From the NCBI GenBank assembly GCA_015066225.1, contig SVOT01000001.1:1-64000 (forward strand): DNA of 64,000 nucleotides. Reading direction: 5' to 3'. A model generated the notes under the pieces. The model did not search any database, was not told the DNA's origin, and saw only the letters and a list, made by a program, of their open reading frames with translations. Below, piece by piece: positions 4,099-61,150 of this stretch (position 1 is its first letter; every line of letters begins with the position of its first letter). This stretch comes from Oscillospiraceae bacterium. Its GTDB lineage: Bacteria > Bacillota > Clostridia > Oscillospirales > Acutalibacteraceae. The position numbers were made by a program, and so were the translations under genes.

Positions 4099-5046
4099 TT
4101 AAAGATTATTAAGAATTTTCAATACGCATTCAAGCTGTTCGGGTTTAACCTTTTCAACGGGTTTGTTATTTTCTACGCAATCTGCGAAATAATTGATTTC
4201 GTTAGCATAAGCGTCGCTCTTGGGCAGGTTGATTGCACCTGTGTCGCCCTCTGCCTGTTGTGAAAGGTCGATTTTTTCATCATTTTTGAGATGTATCATC
4301 ATTTTGCCGTTTTCGTTTGCAACGATTGCATCTTCAAATTGAAAACGGAATTCAGCGGTGAAGGGGTAGCTTGAGGCGTACCATGATGCCTCAGAATTAA
4401 TAGAAAACTCACCAAAATCGTATGTAATACTGATGTAATCCTGTTCGGGGCGTTTTGAACGGTATTGGTGAGCAACCTTAGGCATACCGAAAGCGTAAAC
4501 CATAAAATCAAGGTCGTGGATGTGCAAATCAAAGGGTACAAGACCGCTTCGTTTTTCATCCATCATCCAGCCGTCCCAGCTCCATCTGGGGTAGCTGCCG
4601 AGCCTTATCATTGTGCCGGAAAGAAGCTTGCCGTATTTTTTAGTTTCATAAATTTCTTTGAGAAGCTCGTATTCGGGCCAGAAGCGAAGAACCTGTGCAA
4701 CCATAAATTTAACATTGTTCTTTTCAGCTGTTCTGTAAACTCTTTCAACATCCTCTTCTTTTAAGGAGATGGGTTTTTCTGTAATAACGTTTATGCCTTT
4801 TTCCATAGCCATAACGGCAAAATCTGCATGAAGATATGTAGGCAGACAGATATCAAGAATATCTAATTCTTCGTTAGCAAGCATTTCTTCAAAGCTTGTG
4901 TAAAGGCGTTTTTTGCCTTCGAATTTTTCCATTCTTTCGGGGCGGATGTCACAAAGAGCAACAAGCTCAGCATTTTCCATTGCCTCCCAAGCGGGGATAT
5001 GAGCACCGCTGATTCCGCCGACGCCGACAAGACCGATTTTTAACAT
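4099..5046 (-). CDS. Gfo/Idh/MocA-family NAD(P)-dependent oxidoreductase
   Basis: 315 residues. The Rossmann start GLVGVGGISGAHIPAW (residues 5-20) and the EKPIS motif (90-94) carrying the catalytic lysine identify the Gfo/Idh/MocA family, which oxidises or reduces sugars, inositols and related polyols using NAD(P). The family's C-terminal beta-sheet domain follows. Substrate specificity cannot be assigned. It lies 66 bases downstream of a NamZ-type muramidase gene on the same strand, so it may act on an amino-sugar acid or related cell-wall sugar. That link is from context only. Confidence 0.88.
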   Translation of the reverse strand: MLKIGLVGVGGISGAHIPAWEAMENAELVALCDIRPERMEKFEGKKRLYTSFEEMLANEELDILDICLPTYLHADFAVMAMEKGINVITEKPISLKEEDVERVYRTAEKNNVKFMVAQVLRFWPEYELLKEIYETKKYGKLLSGTMIRLGSYPRWSWDGWMMDEKRSGLVPFDLHIHDLDFMVYAFGMPKVAHQYRSKRPEQDYISITYDFGEFSINSEASWYASSYPFTAEFRFQFEDAIVANENGKMMIHLKNDEKIDLSQQAEGDTGAINLPKSDAYANEINYFADCVENNKPVEKVKPEQLECVLKILNNL

Positions 5047-12240: not shown

Positions 12241-12420
12241 AGTGAAATCGTTCGCTTACGCTCACGGTGAAATAATTTACTCCGTAAATTGTGAAATTTG
12301 ATGCTATCGCATCAAGTGAAATTAAATCCACCCACTCGCCGTCGAGGCGAATTTCACACGCCGCAGGCGTATTTCACATTGCAAAGCAATATTTCACCCA
12401 CCCGCAAGGGTGGATTTAGT
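12241..12420. repeat. array of mini-hairpins joined by a constant GTGAAAT heptamer
   Basis: Short palindromes of different sequence alternate with a constant heptamer. GTGAAAT stands at 12242, 12267, 12291 and 12316; then the orientation flips and ATTTCAC stands at 12351, 12371 and 12391. Palindromes between them include AATTTAC-TCC-GTAAATT, TTGATGC-TATC-GCATCAA, TCGCC-GTCGA-GGCGA, ACGCC-GCA-GGCGT, ATTGC-AAA-GCAAT and CACCC-GCAA-GGGTG. An 11-bp arm at 12323-12333 can also pair with 12408-12418, so the right half folds under an outer stem. It is not coding and not a CRISPR, because the units are not direct repeats with spacers. Confidence 0.85.
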
Positions 12421-12421
12421 T

Positions 12422-12457
12422 GAAAACGACAGATTCCTGTCGGAATCTGTCGTTTTC
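12422..12457 (-). terminator. hairpin terminating the tRNA operon
   Basis: A perfect 16-bp stem (12422-12437 with 12442-12457), loop TGTC, directly after the CCA end of tRNA-Gln on the minus strand. The 3' arm ends in CGTTTTC, so it is a plausible terminator though the T-run lies inside the stem. Confidence 0.7.
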
Positions 12458-12532
12458 TGGCAGGGATGGCGAGGTTCGAACTCACGAATGACGGAGTCAA
12501 AGTCCGTTGCCTTACCGCTTGGCTACATCCCT
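12458..12532 (-). tRNA. tRNA-Gln (TTG anticodon)
   Basis: A cloverleaf folds on the minus strand: acceptor AGGGATG/CATCCCT, anticodon arm ACGGA-CTTTGAC-TCCGT giving anticodon TTG, T-arm with GTTCGAAC, and encoded GCCA end. It is the last tRNA of a four-gene operon. Confidence 0.95.
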
Positions 12533-12543
12533 AGATATAAAAA

Positions 12544-12620
12544 TGGGGTGGATGATCGGAATCGAACCGACGACCTCCAGGGCCACAACCTGGCACTCTA
12601 ACCAACTGAGCTACATCCAC
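12544..12620 (-). tRNA. tRNA-His (GTG anticodon)
   Basis: Acceptor GTGGATG/CATCCAC, anticodon arm CCAGG-TTGTGGC-CCTGG giving anticodon GTG, encoded CCA. The base upstream is G, matching the extra G-1 of histidine tRNAs opposite C73. Confidence 0.95.
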
Positions 12621-12635
12621 CATAATTTATTAAAT

Positions 12636-12712
<77 letters not shown>

Positions 12713-12718
12713 GCATTG

Positions 12719-12792
12719 TGGAGCGGGTGATGGGAATCGAACCCACACGACCAGCTTGGAAGGCTGGGATTCTACCATTGAACTACACCCGC
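12719..12792 (-). tRNA. tRNA-Gly (TCC anticodon)
   Basis: Acceptor GCGGGTG/CACCCGC, anticodon arm CCAGC-CTTCCAA-GCTGG giving anticodon TCC, encoded TCCA end. It is the first tRNA of the operon. Confidence 0.95.
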
Positions 12793-59110: not shown

Positions 59111-59431
59111 ATGACAGATAACATTCAGAATACAGCTACACAGCAAAAAAACGACGAAGTTATGGCTTCGGGTCTCGGCTTCAAATTCTTTAAAAAATGC
59201 TCAACATCATTGAAAAGGCTTTCAGTTGTTGTCTTTATTCTCAATATGTTTTTCTTGATTTCACTTATCGTTGTCGGTGCAGTGTTTTTAGGCGTGTGGT
59301 TGGGCTTTGATATGCTTTCGTTCCTTGCATTACCATTGATAACTGTTTTCGTAATCGGTGTTGTAATCGCAAGACTTATCTCGGCATTGATTTACGGCTT
59401 TGCCGAAATCGTCGAAAAAAACGAAAATTAA
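59111..59431 (+). CDS. small two-helix membrane protein
   Basis: 106 residues. Two hydrophobic helices (about 38-62 and 68-92) after a soluble N terminus TDNIQNTATQQKNDEVM. No recognised family. ATG 59111 has AGGAGG 6 bases upstream; the ATG at 59096 overlaps the lipoprotein stop and is not favoured. Co-transcribed with the lipoprotein gene. Confidence 0.65.
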   Translation: MTDNIQNTATQQKNDEVMASGLGFKFFKKCSTSLKRLSVVVFILNMFFLISLIVVGAVFLGVWLGFDMLSFLALPLITVFVIGVVIARLISALIYGFAEIVEKNEN

Positions 59432-59459
59432 TAAAAATGCAATAATTTTTAGTTTTTTG

Positions 59460-59488
59460 TTGACAAATAAAAAAACGAGGAGTACAAT
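59460..59488 (+). promoter_or_regulatory. promoter of aromatic amino acid operon
   Basis: TTGACA (59460-59465), 17 bases, TACAAT (59483-59488). Transcription should start near 59495. Confidence 0.85.
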
Positions 59489-59519
59489 GTTCACATATTT
59501 TTCAGGAGAGGTGTTACAG

Positions 59520-59591
59520 ATGATTCGTAATTTCGGATATTTTCGATTTTATTATTTTACACAGGATTGTCTGTTTTCATCTTGTAACTGA
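59520..59591 (+). CDS. Phe/Tyr-rich leader peptide of the aromatic operon attenuator
   Basis: 23 codons with GGAGAGGTG 7 bases upstream. The peptide starts MIRNFGYFRFYYFTQD and contains Phe at 5, 8, 10, 13 and 19 and Tyr at 7, 11 and 12. It lies between the operon promoter and a terminator hairpin, upstream of aromatic aminotransferase and pheA. Such composition and position are those of pheA-type leader peptides; the ribosome would stall at the Phe/Tyr codons when charged tRNA is scarce. Confidence 0.85.
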   Translation: MIRNFGYFRFYYFTQDCLFSSCN

Positions 59592-59666
59592 AATTTCAGT
59601 TTAGTGTGAATAGACAGTCCGCATTCTGCTATGCTTTTAAAAGTATATCGGTTTGCGGATTTTTTG
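59564..59666 (+). promoter_or_regulatory. transcription attenuator with competing hairpins
   Basis: Segment 1 (59564-59579, at the end of the leader ORF) pairs with segment 2 (59607-59620), giving the antiterminator. The end of segment 2, GTCCGCA (59617-59623), pairs with TGCGGAT (59654-59660) around an inner stem (59630-59638 with 59639-59647), giving a terminator followed by TTTTT. A ribosome reading to the TGA at 59589 covers segment 1 and allows termination; a ribosome stalled at the earlier Phe/Tyr codons leaves segment 1 free. A perfect palindrome AACTGAAA-TTTCAGTT (59586-59601) lies in the loop of the antiterminator. Confidence 0.82.
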
Positions 59667-59946
59667 TTTAGGGTGAAAGGAGTCATCCGAATCTGCCTAA
59701 AAGCAAATCTTTTTAAGTCTTTTCGGCGTTTCGGTCTTGAAAGACGGCAGCCTATCTTCGTCCTTAACACCAAAAATCCAATAAAAATTTTTTTGTTTTT
59801 AGGTCGAAGATTTTATACAGTGCGGATTTTTGGTCAGCCTAGGCAAAAACGCAGCTAATCCTTTCGGATTGGCGAGTATTTTAACAACGGATGAGCGGAA
59901 ATCCGCCTGTAGAAAACACGGTTCGGATAATTCCATTCACCCTAAA
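59667..59946 (+). ncRNA. candidate structured RNA between the attenuator and the aminotransferase gene
   Basis: A 25-nt segment (59667-59691) pairs with 59922-59946 (22 Watson-Crick, one G-U, two mismatches). Inside: CTGCC (59693-59697) with GGCAG (59746-59750), enclosing GTCTTT(T)C/GAAAGAC (59717-59745); ATCTTCG (59754-59760) with CGAAGAT (59805-59811); a pseudoknot CCAAAAATCC (59770-59779, in that loop) with GGATTTTTGG (59824-59833), 10 of 10; AATCC-TTTC-GGATT (59857-59870); GCGG-AAAT-CCGC (59895-59906). The closing stem ends 1-2 bases before the AAGGAG of the next gene. No T-box sequence is present. I do not recognise the family; a cis-regulatory RNA or an inserted element with terminal inverted repeats are both possible. 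Confidence 0.6.
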
Positions 59947-59959
59947 AAGGAGTATTAAA

Positions 59960-61150
59960 ATGATTTCAGAAAAAATGATGCAGCTTGGCAAAAAAAGTTC
60001 GATTATCCGTGAGATTTTTGAATACGGCAAGAAAAGAAAGGCAGAAATCGGTGCAGAGAATGTTTTCGATTTCAGCCTTGGTAATCCTAGCGTGCCGGCT
60101 CCCCAAAAGGTTACTGACGTTATGAATAAGCTTATTGCCCAGACTCCTGCAGAGGTTCTTCACGGCTATACATCAGCACCCGGCGATTTAAACGTCAGAG
60201 CAAAAATTGCTGAATACATTAAAGAAAAATTCGGAGTGAATGCAAATCCCGGTCTTGTTTATATGACCTGTGGTGCGGCTGCTTCACTTACAATTACTCT
60301 CAATGCTATTGTCGAAGCTGGTGACGAAGTTATAGCATTGGCACCGTTTTTCCCCGAATACAGGGTTTTTGCTGAGCAGGCCGGGGCAAGGCTTGTGGTT
60401 GTGCCTTCGAAAAAAGAAGATTTGCAAATTGATTTTGATGCACTTGAAAAGGCAATTACCCCCAACACAAAGGCAATTATCGTAAATTCACCCAATAACC
60501 CCTCGGGCGTTATTATCCCTGAAAGCGATATTGTTAAATTAACTGATTTGCTTAAAGAAAAGCAAAAGGAATATAATAAAGAGATATTCATAATTTCCGA
60601 CGAACCATACAGAGAGCTTGTTTTCACAGGTGAAAAGGTTCCTTACATCCCTTGTTACTACGATAACACCTTTGTGTGTTATTCATACAGCAAAGCACTT
60701 TCCTTACCCGGTGAGCGTATCGGTTACATTTTTGTTTCACCCGATATGAAGGATGCGAGCGACGTTTATGCGGCAATATGCGGTGCGGGCAGAGCTCTCG
60801 GTTACGTTTGTGCACCGTCTTTGATGCAGTACACAATCGCCGAATGTCTTGAAGATACCGCCGATATCTCAGTTTATGAAAAGAACAGAAAAATTCTTTA
60901 CGATGCACTTACAGATATCGGATACACCGTAATTAAACCAGATGGTGCATTTTATATGTTTGTTAAATCCCTTGAGGAAGACGCAAACAAATTCTATGAA
61001 AGAGCGAAGAAGTTCGAGCTGCTTCTTGTACCAAGCGATTCATTCGGGTGCGAGGGCTTTGTGAGAATCTCTTATTGTGTTGACACAGAACTCATTGAAC
61101 GCTCTATTCCTGCATTTAAAGCACTTTATGAGGATTATAAAAATGACTGA
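59960..61150 (+). CDS. PLP-dependent aminotransferase, class I/II (aromatic or aspartate type)
   Basis: 396 residues. Class I fold: GNPSVPAPQKVTD near the N terminus, NSPNNPSGV, and the PLP-lysine in SYSKALSLPGERIGY, with a C-terminal arginine in GFVRISYCVD. Next to pheA it most likely transaminates phenylpyruvate or prephenate, or supplies a related aromatic acid, but aspartate activity is also possible. ATG 59960 has AAAGGAG 8 bases upstream; the longer frame would run through the structured leader. It overlaps pheA by 8 bases. Confidence 0.92.
   Translation: MISEKMMQLGKKSSIIREIFEYGKKRKAEIGAENVFDFSLGNPSVPAPQKVTDVMNKLIAQTPAEVLHGYTSAPGDLNVRAKIAEYIKEKFGVNANPGLVYMTCGAAASLTITLNAIVEAGDEVIALAPFFPEYRVFAEQAGARLVVVPSKKEDLQIDFDALEKAITPNTKAIIVNSPNNPSGVIIPESDIVKLTDLLKEKQKEYNKEIFIISDEPYRELVFTGEKVPYIPCYYDNTFVCYSYSKALSLPGERIGYIFVSPDMKDASDVYAAICGAGRALGYVCAPSLMQYTIAECLEDTADISVYEKNRKILYDALTDIGYTVIKPDGAFYMFVKSLEEDANKFYERAKKFELLLVPSDSFGCEGFVRISYCVDTELIERSIPAFKALYEDYKND

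Follow-up and report, generated by a model that had tools for sequence, protein, structure and literature searches.

A probable MITE-like mobile element with a covarying interior fold in the leader of an aromatic amino acid operon

Several small bacterial repeats that are mobile, structured or both have been described. RUP of Streptococcus pneumoniae is a small intergenic MITE that inserts at TA, and its mobilisation in trans by IS630-Spn1 has been proposed (PMC2229807). ERIC and Correia/NEMIS are short palindromic mobile repeats between genes, whose transcripts fold end-to-end and can affect mRNA through RNase E or RNase III (PMC2229807, PMC3049150). The CIR repeats of Caulobacter and Brucella form a family with a phylogenetically conserved inner RNA fold (PMC2229807), while BOX, RUP and SPRITE of the pneumococcus are dispersed, transcribed and structured small repeats enriched between convergent genes (PMC3049150). 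IStrons combine a group I intron with an IS and are thus mobile DNA bearing a structured RNA (PMC4227781). In the literature on bacterial MITEs and structured RNAs, mainly that outside subscription journals and preprints, the parts available to us hold no description of the element reported here or of its conserved core.

Here we describe a 276-bp feature in the leader of an aromatic amino acid operon, which is probably a non-autonomous, MITE-like mobile element. Its closest known kind would be MITEs such as ERIC, RUP and Correia; this is a likeness of kind, with the sequences of those elements outside the comparison. The element resembles RUP in being a small intergenic MITE inserted at TA (PMC2229807), but RUP is 107 bp long with ends like those of a known IS, whereas the present element has variable ends, a kept interior and no DDE_3 transposase domain in 22 genomes of its genus. 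With ERIC and Correia/NEMIS it shares the short palindromic form, the mobility and the end-to-end pairing (PMC2229807, PMC3049150). The available descriptions of both mention no covarying core common to elements with unrelated ends, a distinction made by description and not by sequence. With CIR it shares a conserved RNA fold inside a repeat family (PMC2229807); CIR is described there as having two arms, a linker and an exposed GANTC motif, in contrast to the closing end stem and inner helices P2–P6 found here. Like BOX, RUP and SPRITE it is a dispersed, structured small repeat (PMC3049150), yet those are reported to be enriched between convergent genes and the gap types of its insertions equal the background (p = 0.73). 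Like an IStron it is mobile DNA with a structured fold (PMC4227781), but it has no Rfam intron match and no coding part in its 276 nt.

The window is the whole 64,000-nt stretch of DNA that was analysed, and the features of the element within it are collected in Table 1. The element occupies a TA that lies downstream of the attenuator terminator and ahead of the Shine-Dalgarno (SD) of an aromatic aminotransferase gene, which is followed by genes for chorismate mutase/prephenate dehydratase and 3-dehydroquinate synthase. The host leader upstream holds a Phe/Tyr-rich leader peptide (MIRNFGYFRFYYF...), a terminator recognised by eye and a promoter-like site. Positions 59460-59665 contain a promoter-like TTGACA-17-TACAAT, a short ORF (59520-59591) rich in Phe/Tyr codons, and a hairpin and poly-T resembling a terminator. 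Together these features resemble a classical attenuator of the leader-peptide type that would serve the aromatic operon; relatives have leaders of a similar build. Elsewhere in the window, a Gut-1 RNA lies beside four tRNA genes (12346-12792, minus strand).

Table 1. Positions of the element, its predicted helices and the adjoining Shine-Dalgarno in the window
Feature	Position	Strand	Remarks
Probable mobile element, TA to TA, 276 nt	59669..59944	+	Equally sharp ends in other copies; end patterns 59669-59693 (+) and 59920-59944 (-)
Left terminal inverted repeat, 5' strand of closing stem P1	59669..59693	+	Pairs counted: 59670-59691 with 59922-59943
Domain closed by P2 (59695-59705 with 59794-59804), hairpin P3 inside	59695..59804	+	RNAalifold, covariation
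Hairpin P3, AGGC/GCCT type (59742-59745 with 59750-59753)	59742..59753	+	
5' strand of pseudoknot, complementary to 59824-59834	59769..59779	+	Weakly supported; competes with P4
P4 domain (59811-59839 with 59889-59916), conserved core together with P5 and P6	59811..59916	+	Core model matches 59802-59917
P5 (59842-59850 with 59876-59885), A-rich and U-rich strands	59842..59885	+	
Hairpin P6 (59854-59861 with 59866-59873)	59854..59873	+	100% paired, 67 copies
Right terminal inverted repeat, 3' strand of P1	59920..59944	+	Pairs counted: 59922-59943
Shine-Dalgarno of the aminotransferase gene (AAAAGGAG), ATG at 59960	59945..59952	+	Host sequence directly outside the element

A preliminary description of this DNA had reported a long closing stem with nested helices, the right strand of the stem lying against the aminotransferase SD. 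Both observations stand. The predicted fold of 59640-59980 has a free energy of -109.5 kcal/mol (z = -7.07), none of 100 shuffles was as good, and the SD begins directly after the element. There are no pairs between element and flanks in the predicted fold of the leader. An Rfam scan, which that description had proposed, gave no match in the window at the gathering score and nothing credible in 59400-60000 at E up to 10; likewise no family matches any of 19 loci carrying relatives of the core at the gathering score. On the sense strand, P6 and the GAGTATTTTA that follows it (59854-59883) score as a site resembling an intrinsic terminator (one found, 0.5 expected), so a transcriptional effect of the element is conceivable.

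The element is repeated within and beyond its own genome. Two further DNA matches lie in that genome, one full-length at 91% identity and one a 93-bp end fragment, and a model of the P4–P6 core finds at least four places there. When leader plus element was used as the query, 24 of 99 relatives (own genome included) gave a match. Many of the 24 carry full-length copies with the same sharp ends; the rest match in the host leader only, mostly ending at the start of the element. Per-genome copy numbers are lower bounds, the best 6 or 9 candidates having been scored in relatives and Bacillota and the best 12 in Bacteroidota. Among public genome contigs the core pattern matches at least 119 stretches. 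The 80 matches listed comprise 77 titled Clostridia, Eubacterium, Oscillospiraceae or Ruminococcaceae (mostly animal-gut MAGs), one titled bacterium and two Bacteroidota. Profile searches gave 197 places, from which 124 full-length copies with flanks were taken, 118 of them distinct and 80 under 90% identity; 74 of these 80 are 270-282 nt long and uniquely placed. The 118 distinct copies derive from the contig matches together with the copies of the genus. TA stands at both start and end in 99 of them. In 114 a purine (G or A) follows as third base, and the length is 274-278 nt in 102. The ends vary widely between subfamilies (TAGGGTGA, TAAGCAAA, TAGCCAAA, TAACCGAA, TAGAGTGG and others), and both ends within a copy match.

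Empty sites are found at two loci. In three orthologous leaders (L022, L049 and L050) the attenuator poly-T is followed by the SD and ATG of the aminotransferase gene, with no element between them, and the element was therefore inserted into a pre-existing leader. The leader alignment counted these three of five relatives, with L019 and L020 left out. The site between csd and thiI is empty in G011 and G015 and filled in G001 and G018. The empty site of G011 reads GGA-TA-ACTATG. The filled site of G018 reads GGA-TA[element]TA-ACTATG, its left junction being two bases longer, and that of G001 has one base fewer on the right. These sites fit a TA target duplication with small indels at the filled junctions. 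Copies also decay. The orthologous insertions L064 and L066 have been eroded by deletion in a sister species, and derivatives that keep one or both ends with part of the interior gone were seen at G018:C30:137280-137386 and G008:C30:116760-116919 as well as in L064 and L066. Repeats at unrelated loci, absence from orthologous sites, terminal inverted repeats and a target site duplication were thus all found, as in a MITE. The preliminary description had offered a MITE as one of several options, and as to mobility this option is borne out by sharp-ended copies elsewhere, empty orthologous leaders and TA at both ends.

The interior of the element is strongly structured. We aligned 67 of the 74 copies, leaving out L176, L124, L160, L147 and the second copies in L003, L012 and L072. 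Over these 67 copies the 54 pairs of P2–P6 are paired in 95.0% of cases; shuffling the partners gives 80.7% and sliding them at most 53.3%. These percentages are somewhat favourable because the seven omitted copies are mostly divergent, and P2–P6 is favoured over the slid versions because the structure is that of RNAalifold on the same alignment, plus P3. The covariation score is 0.374 against 0.112 when shuffled, and 502 cells are compensatory, with changes on both sides, against 138. Compensatory changes exceed both the shuffled and the slid controls. RNAalifold predicts 72 pairs including the end stem, with both-side change in 50. The end stem itself, where covariation had been suggested as a check, is 92.5% paired against 70.1% when shuffled. 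An early hunch that the fold is conserved was thus sound. The same description held that many copies at unrelated sites without covariation would mark a mobile repeat; copies at unrelated sites are many, but their interior does covary. By comparison of the copies, pairing within one strand of P2–P6 is well shown, and it does not distinguish RNA from folded DNA as the selected form. In an ordinary MITE the transposase reads the ends and the interior is free to drift. Here the reverse is seen, with the interior kept more than the ends, and this is a counterpoint to reading the element as a MITE.

The helix that the preliminary description stressed most, a pseudoknot, fares less well. Its complementarity is exact in this copy and extends over 11 nt. 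In the predicted fold, however, its 3' strand is taken by the nested helix P4, which is strongly supported over the 67 copies. Pseudoknot cells are paired in 78.1% against 74.1%, with a score of 0.125 against 0.080, both above all 500 shuffles. The number of both-side pairs is six, which 204 of the 500 shuffles reach, and one slid version has more both-side cells. When the two strands come from different copies, the pairing is scarcely shorter than within a copy (8.1 against 8.7). Some clades lengthen the pairing with different letters (13 bp in L018, 14 bp in L186 and 12 bp in L092), so the pseudoknot is possible as an alternative state to P4. Across the copies it is weakly supported, the least so of the helices tested, and it does not carry the argument for an RNA function that had been built on it.

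The P4–P6 core extends beyond elements with these ends. A covariance model was built from 51 of the 67 copies. Among 398 Bacillota genomes sampled evenly, 5 match it, including the own genome, and each does so at several places. Of 296 Bacteroidota genomes it matches 4, one being G492; two of the 4 have many matches and the other two a single one. With E up to 0.01, G492 has at least 150 core matches; there are 10 in G493, 31 in G494, 25 in G495 and 16 in G405. G492 is the 7.4-Mb draft of the Bacteroidota genome of L089, and most of its matches are of a 162-bp form. We read 17 of its copies, most of them about 162 bp long; the ends resemble AGGGAGTAGGAAATAAATAA in 16 and differ in the last one, and the copies centre on the core AGGCAAAAAACGCAG-hairpin-CGAGTATTTTTAACG. 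Still other ends occur in G090, G405, G078, G657, G653 and G673 and, by eye, in G073. The flanking genes of L089 and L109 read as Bacteroidota-like by eye, in agreement with their titles. In L288 and L227 the P5 stem appears, again by eye, to be swapped for other complementary letters. A covarying core beneath unrelated ends in two phyla is unusual for MITEs.

Several variant forms were observed. L227 (G000:C3:261728-261845) is a 278-nt relative in the own genome with other ends and a P5–P6 hairpin wholly different in letters. Shorter Clostridia forms of about 165-180 nt (L024 1475-1644; L076, L121, L141, L138) keep the end stem and P4–P6 and lack most of the P2–P3 domain, a layout like that of the Bacteroidota forms. 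In the ends of some relatives (L112 4330-4538, L173 4845-4993, L088 2628-2782) tRNA-like stretches, T-arm plus 3' part, e.g. GTTCGACTCCCG, were noticed by eye.

What moves the element was sought among known transposases. An IS630/Tc1 origin fits the TA target, yet DDE_3 (PF13358, IS630-type transposase) is found in none of the 22 genus genomes, and we rejected it. A Y1 transposase scores above the cut-off in 7 of the 22 and not in the own genome. An origin from IS200/IS605 was rejected on this patchy distribution and on the TA at both ends, since a TA duplication is not expected for IS200/IS605. When an autonomous relative was sought with one end type in the 22 draft genomes of the genus, end pairs stood only about 275 bp apart or closer, and each lone end match fetched in the genus proved to be a contig break, a relic end or a deletion form. 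By eye, the end patterns in G405, G073 and G492 gave no clear pair of transposon length among the matches listed (100 in G405). No cognate transposase was found in the genus genomes, G405, G073 or G492, all searched as draft genomes. Phages and plasmids gave no match to the element, and one IMG/VR contig carries a copy.

A riboswitch-like or protein-binding leader that controls the aromatic operon in cis was among the early suggestions. It draws on the position in the 5' UTR beside the SD, on a fold far better than its shuffles, and on the predicted accessibility of the SD, for which the unpaired value is 0.60 in the leader lacking the element and 0.36 in its presence. This option nevertheless fails at the aromatic locus, because the orthologous leaders lack the element and its neighbours elsewhere are unrelated. 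Copies lie at unrelated loci such as csd-thiI. The Phe/Tyr-rich leader peptide and terminator are already present upstream, and no Rfam model matches, whether for a riboswitch or a T-box. We therefore find regulation of this kind scarcely credible. Hardly better placed, and very improbable, is an element that is removed from the mRNA or skipped by ribosomes, like an intron or a bypass element. It would account for two coding insertions, both sense, in L104 (about 4277-4554; Walker A, MKIAVLGYAGSGKTYL) and L147 (3938-4215; Rieske motif CPHMGC), where the frame is intact once the element and one TA are removed. A fresh knock-out would look alike, however, and no Rfam intron model matches. Coding sequence makes up most of a bacterial genome and only 2 of the 118 copies were judged to lie within genes, so coding insertions look purged.

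Copies between tandem genes are sense in 53 cases and antisense in 15 (p = 4e-6), or 33:13 without near-duplicates (p = 0.005), with the element removed for gene calling. This count uses 88 of the 118 copies; 21 inside a frame by the ORF rule and 9 with no gene on one side were dropped. With the element left in place, 64 are sense, 17 antisense, 12 divergent and 10 convergent (103 of 118). The sense bias could mean a role in the mRNA. It could also follow replication direction, as genes in such bacteria are mostly located on the leading strand, and this would agree with a fold selected as a single-stranded DNA hairpin for a recombinase, of the sort needed by IS200/IS605 elements and integron attC sites. 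Wobbles and A-C departures are balanced in the end stem (52:53) and do not differ significantly in P2–P6 (66:47, p = 0.09), as such a hairpin would allow. A wobble excess as proof of RNA was dropped: the first count rested on a few columns with G-U as the common state, and 66:47 is the count without them. P6, on the other hand, departs by wobbles only (10:0), which shows at least that one of the two strands is the one that folds. The patchy Y1 transposase and the TA duplication also speak against a DNA hairpin of this type, and we regard it as unlikely. A further idea is ribosome bridging, in which the closing stem joins the flanks and a start codon to the right of the element is served by an SD or stop codon to its left; the fold would then be kept because it renders operon insertions harmless. 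In L009, L011/L032, L035 and L181 the element lies by eye apparently between an SD-like stretch and a putative ATG, and for thiI the SD and ATG are confirmed by the empty orthologues. An SD follows the insertion TA within 3 nt in 8 of 22 tandem cases, while in gaps of this kind the same holds for 34 of 510 other TAs. Yet the end stem has no wobble excess, leaderless or coupled initiation could account for thiI, and most copies retain an SD or a longer gap to the right, only a handful splitting SD from ATG. Bridging is thus distinctly improbable. The excess of SD-proximal TAs may reflect insertion preference or survival, which these counts from 22 copies do not separate. The insertion TA lies at the first base of the stop codon in 9 of the 22, and gaps with an insertion have a median of 88 nt (element removed) compared with 27 nt in other gaps.

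Two comparisons bear on where the fold is selected. Inside pairing is 0.941 in sense copies (n=31) and 0.956 in antisense copies (n=11), and this equality suggests that selection maintains the fold in the lineages that move. A possible exception is the orthologous pair at csd-thiI. Its copies in G001 and G018 are alike except at 5 of about 275 positions, and two of these five changes compensate each other in the end stem. In thiI, by contrast, 70 of 819 positions have diverged, and so have 30 of 116 four-fold sites. So few differences could mean a function in place. Recent parallel insertion or gene conversion may also explain the likeness, because another G018 copy is 97% identical to the G018 csd-thiI copy.

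We conclude that the element is of a known kind, a MITE, with an unusual interior; at the aromatic locus the riboswitch reading is rejected and the repeat reading accepted. A putative transposase supplied in trans would move it. Selection on the fold, whether in RNA or in a folded single strand of DNA, would act in the lineages that go on moving and would not come from each host gene. At the aromatic operon the element is most likely a passenger behind the attenuator, a self-contained predicted domain closed by its end repeats, whose stem ends just before the SD. Translation or mRNA stability there might be mildly affected. A kept, covarying interior under changing ends, from gut Clostridia to Bacteroidota, points to some requirement, either for moving or for tolerance in mRNA. 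Tentatively, and with considerable doubt, we suggest that the P4–P6 core is the working part of mobility, an RNA or folded single-strand module that would be read by a putative protein and would enable small elements whose ends change freely to move into TA sites, in many cases beside ribosome-binding sites, in at least two phyla. Ends and core would then evolve as separate, exchangeable parts. Tolerance is directly testable at csd-thiI, where the insertion parts the SD from the start codon in two species. Element copies in 5' UTRs resemble riboswitches, which is a warning for annotation, and the 67-copy alignment and the 51-copy core model can be used to annotate such elements.
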